DNA of 52,882 nt from Candidatus Dadabacteria bacterium. GTDB taxonomy: Bacteria > Desulfobacterota_D > UBA1144 > Nemesobacterales > UBA2774. The position numbers and the translations under genes are program-made. Each line of letters opens with the position of its first letter. Positions within the stretch are counted from its first letter, which is position 1. The notes under the pieces are model-generated. The model saw nothing but the letters and a program-made list of their open reading frames with translations. It was not told the DNA's origin and did not search any database. The DNA lies in contig JADLGH010000057.1 of NCBI GenBank assembly GCA_020849425.1, positions 1 through 52,882 on the forward strand, in the 5' to 3' direction. Positions 17,195-51,885 of the stretch are shown here, one piece after another.

Positions 17195-17258
17195 TTAACG
17201 CTATGGAGACTCGGAATCCGCCGTTTCGAGCGCAGCGAGAAATCACCACATTTCTGTC

Positions 17259-17279
17259 ATCCTGAACTTGATTCAGGAT
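17259..17279. repeat. Hairpin repeat, GTCATCCTGAA type
   Basis: ATCCTGAA, CTTGA loop, TTCAGGAT: a perfect 8-bp stem preceded by GTC. The same sequence recurs at 24887-24907. A weaker relative with a GAGC-type loop lies just upstream at 17223-17243. Confidence 0.75.
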
Positions 17280-17321
17280 CTCGTTTTTAGATTCTCTAAA
17301 AACATTAACAGAAAACGGATT

Positions 17322-17354: not shown

Positions 17355-17428
17355 CGGGCCGGGGACACGTAGTGTCGTTTTCGACGTAGCACCGAAGTTG
17401 CTGAAACCATTTGAAGCGCGGCTGGTGG
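17355..17428 (+). repeat. Module Q, copy 1
   Basis: A 74-bp segment starting CGGGCCGGGGACACGTAGTG. Its inverted copy is at 25293-25366 with 5 mismatches by eye. It contains the small inverted repeat GACAC-GTA-GTGTC, intact in both copies. Confidence 0.75.
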
Positions 17429-17474
17429 CAATAGCAGGGCGATGCCACTTCGAATTCCAGTGGGCGTGGCCCAC

Positions 17475-17553
17475 CTAAAAATCATCGTTCCTTCGCTAAA
17501 TCTTCCACCCACCCCATCCCCTGATAAGATTTTTAACGCTCATCCACTCGATT
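17475..17553 (+). repeat. Module P, copy 1
   Basis: A 79-bp segment starting CTAAAAATCATCGTTCCTTC. Its inverted copy is at 25059-25137 with 5 mismatches by eye. Copy 1 is separated from the CTACTTTT hairpin by module Q, but in copy 2 it follows the hairpin flank directly, so the order is modular. Confidence 0.75.
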
Positions 17554-17791
17554 ATCTCGACGGGGCAAGACTGGTAATTAAACAGTATAGACAACCGGCC
17601 AATGCTATAAATTATCAACCCAACTACGTCGATTTCCAGCGGACGTTGTCCGCCCAATTTTGACGTCCCGGAAAGGTATCGCTTCGCTGCAATAGCAGCT
17701 CGCAATATGAAAGGTATTACTACGGAGAGTCAAGCCGGTCCATCATTTCTCGCTACGCGAGAAATCTCCTTAATTCTTGTCATTCCTGCAA

Positions 17792-17815
17792 CGAATGCGG
17801 GCAAGTGAGTATTCG
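17792..17815. repeat. GTCATTCC hairpin repeat, variant CGAATGC
   Basis: CGAATGC, 10-nt loop (GGGCAAGTGA), GTATTCG. Relative to the common CGATTCC/GGAATCG form, two stem positions changed on both sides so pairing is kept. Preceded by GTCATTCCTGCAA and followed by GACGCC, as in the other copies. Confidence 0.75.
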
Positions 17816-17998
17816 GACGCCCCCGGCCGACTGCAATTAAGTACCTCCGGTACAGCTCGAAAGCGGCTCAAATCAAAATAGCAGGAATCCATTCAGTTTA
17901 TCCCTCTATTGTCCAAACCTATTAGAATCAGAGAACAATGCCGAGCGAAGTAAGAAATTTATTTTTTAGGTTTTTACCACGGATTGGACTGTTTCGGA

Positions 17999-24828: not shown

Positions 24829-24886
24829 TCAAATAACTATTATACACACTCGCTGCGGTATCCAGCCGCGACCCCACATTTCCGTC

Positions 24887-24907
24887 ATCCTGAACTTGAT
24901 TCAGGAT
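24887..24907. repeat. Hairpin repeat, GTCATCCTGAA type, second copy
   Basis: Same ATCCTGAA-CTTGA-TTCAGGAT hairpin as at 17259-17279, in the same direction and also followed by CTCGTTTTT. Confidence 0.75.
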
Positions 24908-24939
24908 CTCGTTTTTCGTCTTTCTTGTTTTAAAAACTG

Positions 24940-24964
24940 GATTCCCGATTAAGGCGCTCGGGAA
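24940..24964. repeat. ATTCCCGA/TCGGGAAT hairpin repeat
   Basis: A perfect 8-bp stem with a 9-nt loop, ending GAATGAC. Read on the other strand it is GTCATTCC...GGAATCCA. That is the shape of ATTCCC-N-GGGAAT intergenic repeats known from other bacteria, such as the Neisseria dRS3 elements. Confidence 0.65.
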
Positions 24965-25058
24965 TGACGCACTTAGGAGCACTGACAAATCATAATATTG
25001 CAAGCCGTGCGAGCGGCGAAGCAATACCCCTCCGGGCCGTCAAAATTGGCGTTAAGAA

Positions 25059-25137
25059 AATCGAGAGGATGAGCGTTAAAAATCTGACCAGGGGATGGGG
25101 GAGGTGGAAGATTTAGCGAAGGAACGATGATTTTTAG
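25059..25137 (-). repeat. Module P, copy 2 (inverted)
   Basis: Reverse complement of 17475-17553 with 5 mismatches in 79 bp by eye. Confidence 0.75.
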
Positions 25138-25165
25138 CGTAATTTTTCCCGGCCCGTGATTTTTG

Positions 25166-25189
25166 CTACTTTTCATCTAGGAAAAGTAG
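25166..25189. repeat. CTACTTTT/AAAAGTAG hairpin, copy 2
   Basis: Same 8-bp stem and 8-nt loop length as 17322-17345, with loop sequence CATCTAGG instead of CTTTGACC. Confidence 0.7.
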
Positions 25190-25292
25190 AGAACCCTTTC
25201 TCCATATCTACCAGCTACCACAGAACGTCCCCCGCAAGGCCGCCAACCCCGCAGACTCTACCAGCTTTCGAAGTAGCAGCACACTGCTACTA

Positions 25293-25366
25293 CCACCAGC
25301 CGCGCTTCAGATGATTTTAGCAACTTCGGCGCTACGCCGAAAACGACACTACGTGTCCCCGGCCCG
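25293..25366 (-). repeat. Module Q, copy 2 (inverted)
   Basis: Reverse complement of 17355-17428 with 5 mismatches in 74 bp by eye. This copy also forms the perfect stem TTCGGCG-TAG-CGCCGAA, which is broken at two positions in copy 1. Confidence 0.75.
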
Positions 25367-25463
25367 GCGGCTCGCAGCCGCTGGCAATCGAAGTAGCCAC
25401 CTTCCGCTATCACCTCCAAACGCGCTCCCGATGCATATGTTTCCGAATGTGATTCGTCGAGAA

Positions 25464-25479
25464 ACACACGTACGTGTGT
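25464..25479. repeat. 16-bp perfect palindrome
   Basis: ACACACGTACGTGTGT is self-complementary across all 16 bases. It lies directly before a GTCATTCC hairpin unit. Confidence 0.7.
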
Positions 25480-25490
25480 GTCATTCCCAA

Positions 25491-25514
25491 CGATTTCGAG
25501 CGAGCGAGGAATCG
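25491..25514. repeat. GTCATTCC hairpin repeat, CGATTTC form
   Basis: CGATTTC, loop GAGCGAGCGA, GGAATCG: seven pairs with one T-G wobble. It is followed by GACGCC and, 15-35 nt on, by the TGAAGCGCAAGCGCTCATCC module found also at 39.7 and 51.8 kb. Confidence 0.75.
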
Positions 25515-25682
25515 GACGCCACAACCATGAAGCGCAAGCGCTCATCCGGTACTGCTCAGAACCCGCCTAAATATCGGGGATCAAGCTTTTGCTTTTGCCT
25601 TCTTCCTCCCTTTAGAAAAAGGGGGGTACGGGGGGATTTAATCTTTTGCCTTATCTTTTAATGAAAACAAGCGGAGAAAAAA

Positions 25683-26549
25683 CTACAGCACCTCCTCCCT
25701 CAAAACCCTCATAGTCCTGAGCACCCCTTCGAACTCCCCGCTCAGCACATAAAGTATAAGGTGCTCGACCCCTGCCTCCCTGTATGCTTCGATCCCGTCC
25801 CTTATCTTTCCGAGCCCCCCGCGGAGCGTCTCTCCGTCGCCGAATTCCCTTCCCTCGTTTATCTCGACGTTTCGTCTCAGGGATATGACGAAGCTTTCCT
25901 TTTTATCGTCCGGAAGGAGGCTCCTCACCTCCCGCGCCTTGGCCTCCACCTCCCCGGGCCCGAGCCCTACGGGATGCCATCCGTCCCCGTGCCCGGCGGC
26001 CCTCTCTATGGACTTCGGGCTCTCGCCCCCCACCCATATCGGCGGGTGGGGCTTACGCCCGGGCTTGGGCTCGAACCTTATCCCCGAGAAAGAGAAATAC
26101 TCCCCCTCGTACGACGGGCTCCCGCTCGTCCAGAGCTCCTTCATTATCTCTATGTATTCGTCGGTCATCCGGCCTCTCTGGTTATAATCGACGCCCAGCG
26201 CCTCGAACTCTCCCCTTAGCCACCCCGAGCCGACGCCGAGCACGACCCTCCCGCCCGAAAGGGCGTCCAGGCTCGATACGGACTTTGCGAGAACGAGGGG
26301 GTTTCTGTACGGAAGCACCAGGACACTCGTCCCGAGCTCTATCCTGCTCGTGACGGACGCTATGAACCCGAGGGAGATGAGCGGATCGTAGAAGACGTCC
26401 CCGAAGACGTTGTGGGAATCCGGCACGACCACGTGGTCGCTGACCCAGACGGAGTCGTACCCGAGCGCCTCGGCGGCGAGGGCGGCCTCCAGGATTTCGT
26501 CCCTGCCCGCGTATTTCCCGAATATGGGGAGGGCTATTCCGATTTTCAT
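25683..26549 (-). CDS. LLM-class (luciferase-like) oxidoreductase, probable F420 type
   Basis: A 288-residue TIM-barrel protein of the luciferase-like monooxygenase superfamily. It begins KIGIALPIFGKYAG and has GYDSVWVSDHVVVP, ELGTSVLVLPYRNP, a LDALSGGRVVLGVGSGWL block and HPPIWVGGESPKSIERAA. This pattern matches the subgroup annotated as F420-dependent oxidoreductases (TIGR03619-like), though FMN use cannot be excluded by eye. The substrate is unknown. It is the second gene of a possible transcript after the lytic transglycosylase (54-nt gap, same direction). No F420 biosynthesis gene is in the window. Confidence 0.88.
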   Translation of the reverse strand: MKIGIALPIFGKYAGRDEILEAALAAEALGYDSVWVSDHVVVPDSHNVFGDVFYDPLISLGFIASVTSRIELGTSVLVLPYRNPLVLAKSVSSLDALSGGRVVLGVGSGWLRGEFEALGVDYNQRGRMTDEYIEIMKELWTSGSPSYEGEYFSFSGIRFEPKPGRKPHPPIWVGGESPKSIERAAGHGDGWHPVGLGPGEVEAKAREVRSLLPDDKKESFVISLRRNVEINEGREFGDGETLRGGLGKIRDGIEAYREAGVEHLILYVLSGEFEGVLRTMRVLREEVL

Positions 26550-31894: not shown

Positions 31895-33622
31895 TTACTT
31901 CCTTGCGCTGAATTTAAGCCCGGCTTTCTGCCTGTCCCAGGTCTTGTCGGTGATTTCCTTTATCTCGGCGACCTTGATTTTCTGCGTCGCCGTCACCGGG
32001 AAGCCGTCTTCGTAGACCTCTATAAACCTCGGGACCATCGCGACCATGACCTTCTCGGCCATCCACTTCGAAAACTCCACGGGATCGAAGGTCGCGCCCT
32101 GCTTTAAGGTCACGTTCAGCTTTATCTCGTCGTCCGATACGTTCGGGAGCCTTATGCCGACGGCCACGGCCTCCTGAATTGCCTCGTACTGCATCGCCAC
32201 GTCCTGAACGGCGATTGGGTCAACGTTCTCGCCCGAGACCCTTATCCTGCTGAACCTTCCGACGAAGTAATACCTGCCGTCTATGCCCCTCGCGAAGAGG
32301 TCGTCCGAATTAAAGAAGCCGTCGTCGTCGAAGGCCTCCCTCGTTCTCCTCTCGTCCTTGAAGTATTCGTTAAGCGTGGTGTGCGGTATGAGCGGCTTTA
32401 TGTAAAGAAGGCCCTTGGCCTCGTCCGGCGGAACCGGGTTCTCGTACGGGTCCCAGAACGGCCTCATTACCTGCGACGGATCGGCCGGGTCCCTGAGCTC
32501 TACGTAATACCCCTCCATGGGGAATCCCGAGGAGCCCGGGCGGTGGTCCTCCGGGTCCTTCCAGAGCACCATTCCCATCTCGGTCGAGCCGTACCCGTCT
32601 ATAACCCTGACGCCGAACCTCTCCTGGAACTCCGGGAGGTTCCTCGGCGCCGGGGAGCCGAGCATTATTCTTACCTTGTGCTTCTTGTCCCATTCCGAAG
32701 GCTCCGCGGCCCAGAGGTATTCCGCGACTGCCCCGAGCATGTTGATCGACGTCGCTCCGCAGCCCGCCGCCCATTTCCAGAAGCTCGACGCCGAGAACCT
32801 GGGGAAAAACACTGCCGTCGCCCCTGCGCCCATAGCGCTGAAGAGGCACATCACCTGGGCGTTTGCGTGCCCGAGCGACAGTATGCTCATGAGAACGTCC
32901 CCGCTCCTTATGCCCTGCTGCTGGAGATACGAGCGCACCGTCAGCACGACGCCGCCGTGGTTTCTCGCGACGCCCTTGGGCATGCCGGTCGTTCCCGACG
33001 TGAACATGCACCTTTCCATGTCCTGCGTCGTCACCTCTACCCCGGTGTTATTGCCCGAAAACTTGTCGAACGTCGAGAACGGGAGCGTCTTTATGCCGCC
33101 GATCTCAGCCGGCACGGCCGCCGGGTCGCCGGTCATGAATATTACCTCGAGGCCCGTTAAATCCTTTCCTATCTCTTCTATAAACGGCACGCTGCCCGGG
33201 TCCATGACGAGCGCCTTCATTTCGGAATAATTGATAACGTATGCGAGCCTTTCGCCCTTTTCGTCCTTGTTTATCGGTACCGGGACGGCCCCGGTCTTAT
33301 GTATTGCAAGGATGGATACCACGTATTCGGAGCAGTTCAGCATGTACATGCCTACCTTGTCGCCCTTCTTTACACCGAACTCGTCCTTAAGACCGTTAGC
33401 CACCCTGTTGGCCCATTCGTTCGTCTCTTTGTAGGTATAGCTTTCCGTTATCTCTCCCTCGGGGTTGCCGACCCTGAACATGGTCTTCTCCGGGAAACGT
33501 TCGGCTCCTGCTTCGAGGCACTTGGTTATAGGCTGCCATTCGGACGTATCCTCGAATTTTCCGAAGGGTAGGGTGCCCTCGCCGAGGTACATCGCATCGC
33601 GGGGTTTAAACAATAAAAGCAT
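31895..33622 (-). CDS. Acyl-CoA synthetase (AMP-forming), copy 1
   Basis: ANL-superfamily ligase that activates a carboxylic acid through an acyl-adenylate and passes it to CoA. The 575-residue protein has the P-loop-like CMFTSGTTGMPKGVARN, GYGSTEMGM, the hinge region YYFVGRFSRIRVSGENVDP (Arg where many have RxK) and the C-terminal catalytic Lys in TQKIKVAEI. It is closely similar throughout to copy 2 upstream, including a 125-bp identical DNA tract. It has its own TTGACA promoter with a palindrome. The acid substrate is unknown. The family includes carnitine-, bile-acid- and fatty-acid-CoA ligases. Confidence 0.9.
   Translation of the reverse strand: MLLLFKPRDAMYLGEGTLPFGKFEDTSEWQPITKCLEAGAERFPEKTMFRVGNPEGEITESYTYKETNEWANRVANGLKDEFGVKKGDKVGMYMLNCSEYVVSILAIHKTGAVPVPINKDEKGERLAYVINYSEMKALVMDPGSVPFIEEIGKDLTGLEVIFMTGDPAAVPAEIGGIKTLPFSTFDKFSGNNTGVEVTTQDMERCMFTSGTTGMPKGVARNHGGVVLTVRSYLQQQGIRSGDVLMSILSLGHANAQVMCLFSAMGAGATAVFFPRFSASSFWKWAAGCGATSINMLGAVAEYLWAAEPSEWDKKHKVRIMLGSPAPRNLPEFQERFGVRVIDGYGSTEMGMVLWKDPEDHRPGSSGFPMEGYYVELRDPADPSQVMRPFWDPYENPVPPDEAKGLLYIKPLIPHTTLNEYFKDERRTREAFDDDGFFNSDDLFARGIDGRYYFVGRFSRIRVSGENVDPIAVQDVAMQYEAIQEAVAVGIRLPNVSDDEIKLNVTLKQGATFDPVEFSKWMAEKVMVAMVPRFIEVYEDGFPVTATQKIKVAEIKEITDKTWDRQKAGLKFSARK
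32277..32401 (-). repeat. 125-bp identical tract, copy in synthetase 1
   Basis: Identical base for base, as read by eye, to 34225-34349 in synthetase 2, including third codon positions. It encodes the block around PHTTLNEYFKDERRTREAFD. Flanking coding DNA differs at many positions. Confidence 0.85.
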
Positions 33623-33845: not shown

Positions 33846-35570
33846 TTACCTCGCCCTGAACTTTAACCCCACCTTGTTTCTGTCCCACGTCTTTTCCGTT
33901 ATCTCTTTAATCTCGGCGACCTTTATCTTCTGGGACGCCGTCATCGGAAACCCGTTTTCATAGATTTCTATAAACCTCGGCACCATGAACACCGGGTTTC
34001 GCTCCGCCATCCACTTCGAAAATTCGACCGGGTCGAACTCTGCCCCCTTTTCGAGCGTTACGTTCAGCTTTATCTCGTCGTCCGATATGTCGGGGAGCCT
34101 TATGCCGACCACTATGGCCTCGTGTATGCCCTCGTACATATTCGCCGCGTCCTGAACGGCTATGGGGTCCACGTTCTCGCCCGAAACCCTGATCCTGCTG
34201 AACCTCCCCTGGAAGTAATACCTTCCGTCTATGCCCCTCGCGAAGAGGTCGTCCGAATTAAAGAAGCCGTCGTCGTCGAAGGCCTCCCTCGTTCTCCTCT
34301 CGTCCTTGAAGTATTCGTTAAGCGTGGTGTGCGGTATGAGCGGCTTTATAAACAGAAGCCCCTTGGCGTCGTCGGGCGGTCTCGGCGATTCGCCCGGGTC
34401 CCAGAACGGCCTCATGACCCTGCTCGTGTTCTCGGGGTCCCTGAGCTCGAGATAATATCCCTCCATCGGGTATCCCGAGCCCCCGGGGCGCGTGTCCTCG
34501 GGGTCGTTCCAGAGCGCCATCCCCATCTCGGTCGAGCCGTACCCGTCTATGACGCGCGTGTTGAAACGCTCCTGGAATTCCTTGAGCTGCTTCGGGGCAG
34601 GCCCCGAAAGGACCATTCTCACCCTGTGCCTCTTGTCCCATTCGCCGGGCTCGGCCGCCCACAGGTATTCCGACACCGCTCCCAGCATGTTAACGCACGT
34701 CGCCTCGCACTCCGCCGCCCACTTCCAGAAATTGGACGCCGAGAACTTCGGATAAAAAACTGCCGTCGCGCCCGCGCCGATGGCTGTAAACAGGCACATC
34801 ACCTGGGCGTTCGCGTGCCCGAGCGTAAGGACGCTCATAAGCACGTCCCCGCTCCTTACGCCGTGCTGCTGTATGTATCCCCTGACGGTCAGTATCACAC
34901 CGCCGTGGTTCCTGGATACGCCCTTCGGCATGCCCGTCGTCCCTGACGTAAACATGCATCTCTCCACGTCCGACACCTTCACGTCCACGCCCGGGTTCCC
35001 GCTCGAATATTCGTCGAATACGGAAAAGGGGAGGGCCTTTACGCCGCCTGCGGATTCCGGAACGGCGTTCGGGTCCCCGGTGACGAATACATACTCTAAC
35101 TTATCCAGATTCTTTGCTATTTCGTCCAGCATTGGGATGCTCTCGGGGTCTACGACGAGGGCCTTCATCTCCGAGTAATTTATAATGTAAGCGAGCCTGT
35201 CGCCCTTCTCGTCCTTGTTTATGGGCACCTGCACCGCGCCCGCTTTATGTATCGCGATTATCGAAATGACGTACTCCGACGAGTTCAGCATGTATATGCC
35301 GACCCTGTCGCCCTTCCTCACGCCGTAATCCTTTATGAAGCCGTTCGCAACGCGGTTGGCCCATTCGTTCGTCTCGCGGTATGTCTGGGTGTTTATGAGA
35401 TTCCCGTCCCTGTCCGCGACGCGGAACATGTTCTTTTCCGGGAATTCGGCCGCGCCCTGTTCGAGGTATCTGGTAATCGGAAGCCATTCCGACGTATCGT
35501 CGTAGCTTCCGAAAGGCAGGTTTCCCTCTCCTATATATTTCTGGTCACGCGGTTTGAATAAAAGCAGCAT
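33846..35570 (-). CDS. Acyl-CoA synthetase (AMP-forming), copy 2
   Basis: A 574-residue paralog of the next gene, sharing the start MLLLFKPRD, FTSGTTGMPKGVSRNHGG, GYGSTEMGM, the hinge FQGRFSRIRVSGEN and the C-terminal Lys in SQKIKVAEI. Differences cluster around the putative acyl pocket and linker (for example ECEATCVNMLGAVSEYLW against GCGATSINMLGAVAEYLW in copy 1), so the substrates may differ. GAGGTG 8 nt before the ATG is the ribosome site. The two genes are a tandem duplication with separate promoters. Confidence 0.9.
   Translation of the reverse strand: MLLLFKPRDQKYIGEGNLPFGSYDDTSEWLPITRYLEQGAAEFPEKNMFRVADRDGNLINTQTYRETNEWANRVANGFIKDYGVRKGDRVGIYMLNSSEYVISIIAIHKAGAVQVPINKDEKGDRLAYIINYSEMKALVVDPESIPMLDEIAKNLDKLEYVFVTGDPNAVPESAGGVKALPFSVFDEYSSGNPGVDVKVSDVERCMFTSGTTGMPKGVSRNHGGVILTVRGYIQQHGVRSGDVLMSVLTLGHANAQVMCLFTAIGAGATAVFYPKFSASNFWKWAAECEATCVNMLGAVSEYLWAAEPGEWDKRHRVRMVLSGPAPKQLKEFQERFNTRVIDGYGSTEMGMALWNDPEDTRPGGSGYPMEGYYLELRDPENTSRVMRPFWDPGESPRPPDDAKGLLFIKPLIPHTTLNEYFKDERRTREAFDDDGFFNSDDLFARGIDGRYYFQGRFSRIRVSGENVDPIAVQDAANMYEGIHEAIVVGIRLPDISDDEIKLNVTLEKGAEFDPVEFSKWMAERNPVFMVPRFIEIYENGFPMTASQKIKVAEIKEITEKTWDRNKVGLKFRAR
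34225..34349 (-). repeat. 125-bp identical tract, copy in synthetase 2
   Basis: Perfect direct repeat of 32277-32401, 1948 bp away. See the gene-conversion finding. Confidence 0.85.
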
Positions 35571-37956: not shown

Positions 37957-39342
37957 ATGAAAACGATAAACCCCGCTATATTCCGCGAATACGACATAAG
38001 GGGCGTCGTCGACGCCGACCTCGACGAAGGCGTCTACGAGACGATAGGTAAGGCGTTCGGCACATACGTAAAAGACCACGGCGGAAAGGTCCTGTCCCTC
38101 GGCCGCGACTGCCGGCTGAGCTCGCCCGGCTATGCCCGCGCGATGACGAGGGGCATAACCTCTACGGGCATAGACGTCGTGGATCTGGGAATGGTAACGA
38201 CGCCCATGCTCTACTTCTCCCTCTACAACCTCCCCGTTGACGGCGGCGTCATGATAACCGCGAGCCACAACCCCGGGGAATATAACGGCGTAAAGCTCTG
38301 CCTCGGCCGTGACTCCGTCTTCGGAGAAGAGATTCAAAAGATAAGGGAAATCGCCGACAGGGGCGAAGTCCACACCGGGGCCGGAACGGCGGCCGAAACA
38401 TCTATAGAAGAAAAGTACGTCGAGTTCTTAAAATCCAACGTCGAGATAAAGCCCGGCCTACGCCTGGCCGTCGATTACGGGAACGGCATGGTCGGTGTCA
38501 TAGGCCCCCGCGTGTTCGGGGAGTTCGGCTGCGACGTAAAAGAGCTCTACGTCACTCCCGACGGCACGTTCACGAACCACCATCCGGATCCCACGATCGA
38601 GGAGAACGTCGCCGAGCTCGCCGAAACGGTGGTCGGCGAGGGTTTCAGCCTCGGGATAGGTTTCGACGGCGACGGCGACAGGGTGGGCGTCGTGGACGGG
38701 GAGGGCCGCATAATATGGGGCGACATGCTCGTCCTCATATACGCGAGGGACGTCCTCTCCCGTAAGAAAGGGGCTGAGATAATAGGCGACGTCAAATGCT
38801 CGAACCGCCTCTTCGAGGGTATCGAGGCGGCCGGCGGAAAGCCCGTCATGTGGAAGACCGGCCACTCCCTCATCAAGAACAAGATGAAGAAGGACGGCGC
38901 GGCGCTCGCCGGCGAGATGAGCGGCCATATATTCTTCGCCGACAAGTTCTTCGGGTACGACGACGCCCTTTACGCCGCCCTCCGCCTGCTCGAAATCATC
39001 TCCTCCTCGGGAAAGACGATCCCCGAGCTCCTCGAAGGCGTCCCCCCGGCCGTATCGACGCCCGAAATAAGGCTCGACTGCCCCGAGGCCATCAAATTCC
39101 CGGTTGTCGAGCTCGTAAGGAAAAAGCTCGGCGAGAATTACAGGGTAATCGACATAGATGGGGCGCGTATAGAATTCCCCGACGGGTGGGGGCTCATAAG
39201 GGCGTCGAATACGCAGCCGGCCCTCGTTCTCAGGTTCGAGGCCCGGAGCGAAGAAAGAATGGCCGAAATCCGCTCTATCATAGAGCAGGCGCTTGCATCC
39301 GCTATGGAAGAATTATCCCGGGCAGGATTGGAACGGATGTGA
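37957..39342 (+). CDS. Phosphomannomutase/phosphoglucomutase
   Basis: Alpha-D-phosphohexomutase that interconverts hexose 6- and 1-phosphates for surface polysaccharide or glycogen precursors. The 461-residue protein opens INPAIFREYDIRG. It has the phosphoserine loop MITASHNPGEYNG (Ser103), the metal loop GFDGDGDRVGVVD (about 235-247), the sugar-binding GEMSGHIFF and a C-terminal phosphate-binding RASNTQPALVLRFEA. The ATG at 37957 is preferred to the GTG at 37948 because AAGGTG lies 6 nt upstream. It resembles the ManB/AlgC type that takes both mannose and glucose. It diverges from trpE. Confidence 0.94.
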   Translation: MKTINPAIFREYDIRGVVDADLDEGVYETIGKAFGTYVKDHGGKVLSLGRDCRLSSPGYARAMTRGITSTGIDVVDLGMVTTPMLYFSLYNLPVDGGVMITASHNPGEYNGVKLCLGRDSVFGEEIQKIREIADRGEVHTGAGTAAETSIEEKYVEFLKSNVEIKPGLRLAVDYGNGMVGVIGPRVFGEFGCDVKELYVTPDGTFTNHHPDPTIEENVAELAETVVGEGFSLGIGFDGDGDRVGVVDGEGRIIWGDMLVLIYARDVLSRKKGAEIIGDVKCSNRLFEGIEAAGGKPVMWKTGHSLIKNKMKKDGAALAGEMSGHIFFADKFFGYDDALYAALRLLEIISSSGKTIPELLEGVPPAVSTPEIRLDCPEAIKFPVVELVRKKLGENYRVIDIDGARIEFPDGWGLIRASNTQPALVLRFEARSEERMAEIRSIIEQALASAMEELSRAGLERM

Positions 39343-39421
39343 TTTCTCTTTCACTTTTCTTTTTCCCCGGTGGAAGAGGGGCATACGGGGATTTATTCTT
39401 TTTAGTCTGTCATTCCTGCAA

Positions 39422-39445
39422 CGATTCCGAACGAGTGAGGAATCG
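39422..39445. repeat. GTCATTCC hairpin repeat, CGATTCC form
   Basis: CGATTCC, loop GAACGAGTGA, GGAATCG, perfect 7-bp stem, flanked by GTCATTCCTGCAA and GACGCC. Confidence 0.75.
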
Positions 39446-39643
39446 GACGCCCTCGAACAACTAAGAGGAAGGCCATCCAGTGCCGCTCGAAAGTAACCGA
39501 AATTAAAATAGCAGGCACCCATTCAGTCTTCCGCCAGCAATCTGTCAAGAATTCCTTGACATCTACAATTGCGAGGGAGCGCCCCACGCGACCGCGGCAA
39601 TCTTCTTTTAATCCGCAATCCTTATAGCGTGTCATTCTCAGCA

Positions 39644-39663
39644 ATTCCGAGCGAGCGAGGAAT
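39644..39663. repeat. GTCATTC hairpin repeat, shortened stem
   Basis: ATTCC, loop GAGCGAGCGA, GGAAT: 5 bp, followed by CACCACC, as in the copy near 17243. Confidence 0.65.
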
Positions 39664-39670
39664 CACCACC

Positions 39671-39831
39671 CTTCTGTCATTCCCAACGGTTCTGAGCGTG
39701 CGCAAGAACCGGACGACTACGCCCTGAAGCGCAAGCGCTCATCCGGTACAGCTCAGAACATACCTTCTTTAGTATCAATGCCTGTATCGGGAATACATTA
39801 CCGCCAGCAATTAATCAAGTGCTTTTGTCAT
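39671..39831 (+). repeat. 161-bp direct repeat, copy 1
   Basis: Matches 51726-51885 with seven substitutions and one 1-nt deletion by eye. It contains hairpin CGGTTCT-(11-nt loop)-AGAACCG (39687-39711), the tight hairpin AGCGC-AA-GCGCT and an ACCTTCTTTAGTATCAATG segment. The two copies lie 12 kb apart in the same orientation. Confidence 0.85.
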
Positions 39832-39840
39832 TTCGACCAA

Positions 39841-39864
39841 CGATTTCGAGCGAGCGAGGAATCG
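39841..39864. repeat. GTCATT hairpin repeat, CGATTTC form
   Basis: CGATTTC, loop GAGCGAGCGA, GGAATCG, identical to the hairpin at 25491-25514. Confidence 0.75.
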
Positions 39865-39998
39865 GACGCCCTGGACTGATTGCAAGAAAGCATATCCAGT
39901 ACTGCTCGGAAATACCTCAAATCTAAACAGGAGAAATCCATCCTTTGTCTTTATAAGAAGGGTATGGGGGTTTATTCTTTTATCCGACGGGGCCGGGA

Positions 39999-40229
39999 TC
40001 AGACGACGTTTTCCTTCAGAACGTCCCTGTCCTCGGCCTGGTTCTTTAAAGAGTAGTAAATCCGTTCGAAGTCCTGGCGCGGTATGACGCCTTTCTGGAA
40101 GAGTGCCCCGACGAGGGTCCAGGTAAAGCTCTTGTCGTCTATCTCCACCCCGCTCTTTTTCAGGATGGCCAGTATCGCATCCACGGCCTCCTGAGCCGAG
40201 AACTCCCCGTACTCGTCCCTGAAATTCAT
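39999..40229 (-). CDS. Small helical protein, unknown
   Basis: A 76-residue acidic, probably all-helical protein without signal or membrane segment (e.g. FSAQEAVDAILAILKKSGVEI). The ATG at 40229 has a strong AGGAGG 9 nt upstream; the track start 40262 is rejected. It has a consensus promoter of its own. I do not recognise the family. It lies downstream of nitrilase 2 in the same direction, 183 nt away, so a functional link is possible but unproven. Confidence 0.75.
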   Translation of the reverse strand: MNFRDEYGEFSAQEAVDAILAILKKSGVEIDDKSFTWTLVGALFQKGVIPRQDFERIYYSLKNQAEDRDVLKENVV

Positions 40230-40277
40230 CACCCGACCCTCCTTTGCATGGCCTTCAGGCATTCTCCCTTGAATTGG

Positions 40278-40306
40278 TTTATATAACGTTTCGATAGTAA
40301 TGTCAA
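40278..40306 (-). promoter_or_regulatory. Promoter of small helical protein gene
   Basis: On the minus strand: TTGACA, 17-nt spacer, TATAAA, about 48 nt before the ATG. Strong sigma70-type match. Confidence 0.65.
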
Positions 40307-51284: not shown

Positions 51285-51460
51285 TGCACTGTCTTAGCGT
51301 TTTATCCCCTTTGGAAAAGAGATGCACAGTTTGCGTTGACACCTGACATCGCAGGAGACTTTGCCATTCTGATCCCTGCGCGTCCCTACCTTTAATCTCT
51401 TTCCTCACCTCTCATGGGGAGGACCAAGATGGGGGTTGCCTCAAGCGCTGTCATTCCCAA

Positions 51461-51484
51461 CGATTCCGAGCAAGTGAGGAATCG
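51461..51484. repeat. GTCATTCC hairpin repeat, CGATTCC form
   Basis: CGATTCC, loop GAGCAAGTGA, GGAATCG, perfect 7-bp stem, preceded by GTCATTCCCAA. Confidence 0.75.
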
Positions 51485-51725
51485 GATGCCGCCACCTTGA
51501 AGCGCAAATGTTTATCCAGTCCCGCTCGCAACTTACCATCTTTAACATAAGGCTTGTATCGGTAATCCGGATCAATCCACAGTCGCGGCTCTGCCGCGAC
51601 TCCACCCTTCCGTCATTCTTCTAGTCTGTCATTCCCTAATGCTTGTATAGGGAATCCACTTCCGCAAGCAATCCATCAAGAGTTTTGTCATCCCGAACAA
51701 CGATTTCGAGCGAGGAATTTCCACA

Positions 51726-51885
51726 CTTCTGTCATTCCCAACGGTTCTGAGCATGCGCAAGAACCGGACGACTACGCCCTGAAGCGCAAGCGCTCATCCG
51801 TACAGCTCAGAACATACCTTCTTTAGTATCAATGCTTGTATCGGGAATCCACTTCCGCCAGCAATTCATCAAGCGCTTTTGTCAT
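51726..51885 (+). repeat. 161-bp direct repeat, copy 2
   Basis: Matches 39671-39831, same orientation, about 95 percent by eye. It contains the CGGTTCT/AGAACCG hairpin at 51742-51766. Confidence 0.85.

Follow-up and report, generated by a model that had tools for sequence, protein, structure and literature searches.

A scattered element of about 91 bases that breaks into the middle of palindromes suggests a very small mobile element seeking foldable DNA. We consider it probable, for the explanation taken as a whole, that the hairpins described here form the 5' terminus of a non-coding, non-autonomous and scattered element of about 91 bp (hereafter the core), which targets palindromes and would be moved by an enzyme provided in trans. 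The window, that is, the whole stretch of 52,882 nucleotides that was analysed, is contig 57 of a 2.02-Mb Candidatus Dadabacteria MAG (G000, 78% complete). A covariance model built from 46 hairpins out of seven genomes finds seven full core hairpins in the window, with E values from 2e-16 to 7e-11, together with a partial copy at 39644; a truncated copy is also present at 51699. Throughout the window's genome, a 76-nt unit gives 41 matches by blastn, and at least 77 core copies are found by the covariance model.

The core and the repeats that it interrupts

Aligned copies of the core share one layout, which runs from AACG(A/G)(A/T)T.., the beginning of the stem, through a 10-11-nt loop, the returning stem and the motif GGACGCC, to a tail of about 55 nt that finishes in AAAACA or AAAATA. 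Both ends are fixed in these copies, AACG... at the 5' side and ...AAAACA/AAAATA at the 3' side, and the length is near-constant, being 91 nt in most of the complete copies of the core1 alignment. The hairpin, with a stem of 7 bp whose first bases are CG, forms the 5' end. Since most copies are 80-90% identical, no recent movement is seen. The bases flanking the core are variable, yet they vary as a pair, which corresponds to the two halves of separate repeats. The features of the window are the following, with the strand in brackets.

17256-17283 (+): empty (uninterrupted) type C host repeat, GTCATCCTGAACTTGATTCAGGATCTCG
17779-17789 (+): left half of a type A host, GTCATTCCTGC
17790-17880 (+): core, 91 nt, stem CGAATGC/GTATTCG at 17792; covariance model match 17790-17821, blast match 17790-17880
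17881-17896 (+): right half of a type A host, GCAGGAATCCATTCAG; in the predicted RNA fold it forms an outer stem of 8 bp with 17779-17789
24884-24911 (+): empty type C host repeat
24938-24968 (-): empty type B host repeat
25480-25488 (+): left half of a type B host, GTCATTCCC
25489-25574 (+): core, short-tailed form, stem CGATTTC/GGAATCG at 25491; covariance model match 25489-25520, 56.3 bits; block missing at the orthologous place of the sister genome
25575-25582 (+): right half of a type B host, decayed, CGGGGATC
39409-39419 (+): left half of a type A host, GTCATTCCTGC; pairs with 39511-39515; the empty form GTCATTCCTGCGCAGGCAGGAACCC is present in the genome
39420-39510 (+): core, 91 nt, AACG...AAAATA, the copy that carries the hairpin at 39422 (core1 alignment); covariance model match 39420-39451, 53.5 bits
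39422-39445 (+): hairpin CGATTCC-GAACGAGTGA-GGAATCG, 7-bp stem and 10-nt loop; folds alone as RNA, z = -2.2
39511-39526 (+): right half of a type A host, GCAGGCACCCATTCAG; same host repeat as 39409-39419
39631-39664 (+): short recombinant form, host left half plus hairpin ending in GGAATC, without GGACGCC and tail; partial covariance model match 39644-39663
39676-39684 (+): left half of a type B host, GTCATTCCC; the orthologous gap of the sister genome has the uninterrupted GTCATTCCCGAGTGCTTTAATCGGGAATCCA
39685-39776 (+): core, long-tail form, stem CGGTTCT/AGAACCG; covariance model match 39685-39717
39777-39794 (+): remaining host loop and right arm, AATGCCTGTATCGGGAAT
39827-39838 (+): left half of a type D host, GTCATTTCGACC
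39839-39929 (+): core, 91 nt, stem CGATTTC/GGAATCG at 39841; covariance model match 39839-39870, 56.3 bits
39930-39940 (+): right half of a type D host, GGAGAAATCCA; arms ATTTC/GAAAT, as against ATTCC/GGAAT in types A and B
51450-51458 (+): left half of a type B host
51459-51548 (+): core, long-tail form, stem CGATTCC/GGAATCG at 51461; covariance model match 51459-51490
51549-51568 (+): remaining host loop and right arm, CGGTAATCC
51628-51658 (+): empty type B host repeat, GTCATTCCCTAATGCTTGTATAGGGAATCCA
51687-51720 (+): host left half GTCATCCCGAAC with truncated core
51731-51739 (+): left half of a type B host
51740-51830 (+): core, long-tail form, stem CGGTTCT/AGAACCG at 51742; covariance model match 51740-51772
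51831-51850 (+): remaining host loop and right arm, CGGGAATCC

The initial annotation had described at least eight hairpin units starting with GTCATTCC. All the stems that it quoted are present (39422, 51461, 25491, 39841, 17792 with one G.T pair, 39687 and 51742), and the window has seven full units besides the partial and the truncated one. However, the unit had been cut in the wrong place, as GTCATTCC lies outside the hairpin element. It belongs to a separate palindromic repeat (dRS3-like, or 'CGTC REP') and makes up its left half; the right half follows some 90-105 nt downstream with the core in between. The likeness to Neisseria dRS3 is therefore real for the interrupted host (GTCATTCC ... 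GGAATCC), but it is not a feature of the hairpin. That first reading had recognised neither the insert structure nor the pairing of the host halves, which were found in the follow-up.

Apart from the core, the window contains inverted copies of another, longer composite intergenic repeat at 17355-17562 and 25050-25366 (88-100 nt, 89-91% complementary, 7.5-7.8 kb apart), and a pair of neighbouring, minus-strand paralogous genes at 31895-33622 and 33846-35570, with a DNA identity of 73-86%.

The same core interrupts at least seven repeat families that are unrelated to each other, intrastrand-triplex motifs among them, at one fixed point per family and, according to a coarse pattern test, in a single orientation relative to the host. 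These are listed below with the host bases replaced at the insertion point, where these were read by eye.

Type A: GTCATTCCTGC / core / GCAGGAACCC; GCAG replaced
Type B: GTCATTCCC / core / ..CGGGAATCC
Type C: GTCATTCTGAAC / core / TTCAGAATCTCG; TGA replaced
Type D: GTCATTTCGAAC / core / GTGAGAAATCT; GAAC replaced
Type E (triplex type): CCCCCTTAGGAAAAGGGG / core / GGGGGATTT; GTAC replaced
Type F (triplex type): CCCTCTCCCTTGAGGG / core / GGGACAGGGTGAGGGTG; AGA replaced
Type G: GTCATTGCGAGC / core / GCGCGGCAATC
More hosts, seen in G003, G004 and G012: for example AAAATCGTTCA / core / TGAACGATTTT and AAAATGTTTT / core / AAAACATTTT

Empty versions of each type from A to G were found in the loci read, and these are usually 3-4 nt longer at the insertion point. 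No consistent target-site duplication was observed; palindromic hosts have none, and 3-4 nt are replaced instead. When each flank was classified independently, the 5' and 3' halves came from the same host family in 49 of the 53 classifiable copies (permutation mean 13.8, maximum 24 in 10,000), and in 26 of 30 after dropping the copies whose two flanks both carry the commonest type. This class test took over from an earlier test of arm complementarity, which was weak because one host type dominates. In G000/G001 the arm-pairing score was only slightly above that of shuffles (6.97 vs 6.61), owing to the dominance of type B. In the other genera, the flanks belonging to one copy pair better than shuffled ones, with 8.02 vs 6.91 (sd 0.15) and 0/10,000 permutations reaching that value.

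The alternative that survives best, and which we nevertheless regard as unlikely, is that these structures are mosaics formed by recombination only, with no insertion activity. Gene conversion, or replication template switching at hairpins, would let repeats that share a GAGCGAGCGAGGAATC stretch swap their halves, and duplication would have spread the long units, which would be old composites. In agreement with this, hosts with unlike halves exist (5'B/3'C in locus L018, 5'C/3'A in L011 and 5'E/3'D in L017), as do short hybrid forms, and the window copies at 39685 and 51740, whose core stretches are 93-96% identical (repeats D9 and D11), are one duplicated block. Repeats also cluster in one-strand islands: in those of G003 and G004 (L254-L293), where host repeats and cores are found side by side and share a direction over 20 kb, 104 of 128 pairs are on the same strand, against 68.6 expected, and the hosts behave likewise (35 to 11). 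This strand preference also correlates with GC skew (p 0.003-0.005). As the host repeats share the orientation of the cores, such a strand-of-replication effect says nothing specific on insertion, and a joint spread of both by recombination is possible. However, recombination needs homology and would not yield so many matched halves, and the same core, with the same ends, is present in hosts without shared sequence (types E, F and G, and AAAATCGTTCA...TGAACGATTTT in G003) and within a conserved gene. The mosaics, together with the short tail-less forms, show that recombination took place later.

Presence and absence at orthologous sites

The presence or absence of the core at orthologous sites, which marks a mobile element, was observed both against the sister genome G001 and within a protein-coding gene. 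The gap that holds 24847-25691 in the window measures about 130 bp in G001 and is free of repeats. In the gap at 39342-40303, a short hairpin precedes a type B repeat in G001, and this repeat is uninterrupted; in the window, its two halves flank the 39685 core. This G001 counterpart is likely, and not certainly, an empty site, because such dimers are common.

Even though most core copies are intergenic, the second case involves a conserved single-copy gene compared in six genomes of one genus, plus G003. The gene has the uninterrupted form MGRIE-HITTQQ in G006, G009, G011 and G013, whereas in G002 and G015 it contains 84 extra bp, in frame and bearing the hairpin, with the MGRIE duplicated. 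This insert is flanked by a direct duplication of 15-16 nt, and is the only case with a duplication. In G003, a separate core copy ends the gene at its 3' end. The supposed link of the hairpin to this small conserved gene in G002 and G003 is thus really insertion into the gene. The gene itself (L237-L245; MGRIEHITTQQIIGEWGS..., about 119 aa) has no Pfam match and is limited to this family among the genomes searched.

Conservation of the hairpin and the folded strand

The 5' hairpin is the sole part of the core kept across genera, the interval 3' of it being hardly conserved between them. In 46 distinct hairpins from seven genomes, a set chosen for clear copies, helix 1 is paired in 99.4% of the cases and five of its seven pairs change on both sides. 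Considering helix 1 and the small loop helix together, 38 cells are changed on both sides, compared with 9.2 in shuffled data (0/500); as a control, sliding of the partner lowers pairing from 98.3% to 18-42%. A tree-based null over 142 hairpins and 56 columns gives stem pairs as the two best covarying column pairs, with E values of 0.06 and 0.11 over all pairs, and of about 0.0004 over the seven stem pairs; stem pairing reaches 94.3%, the null maximum being 90.6% in 150 simulations. The compensatory stem changes of the initial annotation thus hold across genera in both analyses. Inside the genus alone covariation is not significant (best pair E = 0.45), because few subfamilies carry the variation, a source that the annotation had itself named as speaking against its reading.

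Within the loop, columns 12-13 can form two further pairs with columns 16-17, which are paired in 94.6% of the cases, with G-C, A-T and C-G combinations seen. In the loop GAGCNNGC (columns 12-17 of A1), these two pairs take the form GC-NN-GC, reminiscent of the very stable DNA mini-hairpins of the GCGAAGC type.

Regarding the molecule that folds, changes from a Watson-Crick pair led to G.T in 40 tree events and to A.C in 19 (p = 0.009), and full copies contain 70 G.T vs 8 A.C cells. Since a cruciform would be indifferent to this difference, the written strand folds as RNA or single-stranded DNA, assuming the absence of strand-biased mutation. From the proposal of selection on a folded RNA or DNA, the folded single strand is therefore retained; it may be RNA or single-stranded DNA, the long forms folding no better than shuffles and the orientation to neighbouring genes being without significant bias.

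A structured RNA, either a 3'-UTR element or a small RNA whose copies are kept for their RNA function, would account for the two-sided changes and for the one-strand G.T preference, and three of the four repeat-bearing gaps of the window lie between convergent genes. We find this explanation quite improbable, as the Rfam scan of the window gave nothing at the gathering score, the long forms fold no better than shuffles (z from -0.02 to -1.5), whole-unit RNA structure is convincing only at the 5' hairpin, the one part conserved between genera, and the orientation of the core relative to neighbouring genes has no significant bias (18 convergent, 12 divergent, 16 sense and 9 antisense).

In the palindrome-targeting explanation that we favour, the core would move via a single-stranded intermediate, and the 5' hairpin together with GGACGCC would be the recognition signal for the mover enzyme. 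The landing site of the core would be the loop exposed when a hairpin or triplex is extruded, where it would replace loop bases, and the copies would afterwards recombine, both among themselves and with plain repeats, generating the mosaics and short forms. As a tentative extension, possible at best, this minimal element may pick its targets by DNA shape and not by sequence, any extruded hairpin or intrastrand triplex loop being suitable, with 3-4 loop bases swapped via an enzyme class not yet tied to REPs or host hairpin-processing or repair machinery.

Distribution, candidate movers and known systems

Besides the window's genome, core copies amount to at least 51 in G001, 115 in G003, 42 in G004, 39 in G007, 52 in G010 and 89 in G012, all of these being lower bounds (completeness is 59% in G001, 86% in G012, and 92-96% in G004, G007 and G010). 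The full model-based set exceeds 400 copies. With the first 118 candidates of each genome scored, two other genera of the family have few or no copies, G009, G011 and G013 being copy-poor, 45 more distant genomes give only two weak matches, and the core is confined to one family of Dadabacteria. In an exact pattern scan, all MAGs with the motif were named Candidatus Dadabacteria, and blastn against plasmid and phage records gave no matches. A 30-kb contig from a viral collection (IMGVR_UViG_3300028845_000195; L252, L253), with terminase, portal and tape-measure genes, contains at least nine full cores within some 22 kb, a density about 10 times that of G000; it may be an element-rich prophage from a related bacterium, or possibly a carrier.

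An association with RAYT/TnpA-REP transposases, which the initial annotation had proposed to look for, did not appear. A REPIN/RAYT system, where REP hairpins are moved by a tyrosine (Y1/HUH) transposase, would fit a hairpin with a conserved edge motif and the folding of the written strand, and a RAYT gene of G003 (NF047646) lies about 1 kb from a core copy. Nevertheless, this is highly improbable: Y1_Tnp is missing in G000, G001, G004, G007, G010 and G012, all of them copy-rich (G000 and G001 being incomplete), and was detected only in G003 and in G011, the latter without core copies; no GTAG-type tag is present beside the hairpin in the aligned copies; and the G003 gene appears to adjoin a GTAG-type repeat of its own. 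That gene (L168 1276-1902, G003:C8; REP-associated tyrosine transposase, E 3e-34) is the only one found in the family, and it is the upstream reading frame that suggests the adjoining GTAG...AGCGGCTTCCAGCCGC-type repeat.

Other candidate movers were also rejected. Group IIC introns target hairpins and rely on a reverse transcriptase; the distribution of reverse transcriptases (RVT_1) does not match copy number, and neither IS110, IS4/5 (DDE_Tnp_1) nor IS3-type (rve) transposases follow it. Two contigs of G011 (C66 and C87) have frames longer than 2,000 aa in which RVT_1 and rve are both matched; their resemblance to eukaryotic retrotransposons points to possible contamination of this MAG. In the loci read, no longer copy of the core, such as a full-length insertion sequence, was met, and the five enzyme families searched do not follow the copies.

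The CGTC-tagged REPs, among them Neisseria dRS3, are defined by a CGTC/TGTC tag, an 8-9-bp stem starting with AT and a 4-5-nt loop; they were described without a known mover, some families lying inside larger palindromes (Di Nocera et al. 2013, PMC3733652). Host types A-D are of this kind by their (T/C)GTC-AT start, with empty copies such as GTCATTCCTGCGCAGGCAGGAACCC and GTCATTCCCGAATGCTTGTATCGGGAATCC, and by being short palindromes in mosaic intergenic clusters with no known transposase; the CCA tail is present in types A and B only, and the loops of type B are longer than those described. That the whole structure is an ordinary REP of this kind and nothing beyond is scarcely credible, since the description fits the interrupted hosts only, the core having a 7-bp stem from CG, a loop of 10-11 nt and, behind it, some 55 nt of tail, with the tag belonging to the host half. 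Furthermore, where one REP family per palindrome was reported (PMC3733652), the core has at least seven host families, with empty copies in the same genomes.

Insertion sequences that target REPs, such as IS1397, ISKpn1, IS621, ISPsy8 and ISPpu9/10, likewise interrupt palindromic repeats at a single precise position (PMC1525189), but they carry a transposase gene and have one REP target, whereas the core is non-coding, of about 91 bp, and enters hosts without shared sequence. MITEs are also short, non-coding, dispersed and of high copy number; contrary to them, the core lacks terminal inverted repeats, its ends AACG... and ...AAAACA not being complementary. No regular target duplication is seen, the gene insert having one of 15-16 nt and the palindromic hosts none. 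The Rickettsia palindromic elements are short non-coding palindromic inserts, some of them in frame in genes (PMC3733652), which may be compared with the in-frame insert of the MGRIE gene in G002 and G015; these elements are not known to prefer other palindromes. Finally, the intrastrand triplex repeats of E. coli, TM_ECO (PMC4666352), have the same motif as host type F (CCCTCTCCCTTGAGGG...GGGTGAGGGT), which is here an insertion target of the core. The closest precedents are the insertion sequences that interrupt REPs, the REPs lying within larger palindromes and the Rickettsia elements; in the open-access literature, no element was found described that targets many unrelated palindromes.

Being clearly inserted, with fixed ends, tens to more than 100 copies in each genome and hosts limited to one bacterial family, the core offers a tractable route to the mover of CGTC-REPs (PMC3733652). 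If the explanation is true, its preference for the middles of unrelated palindromes would be genomic evidence of hairpin and triplex extrusion in living cells, which has long been disputed.
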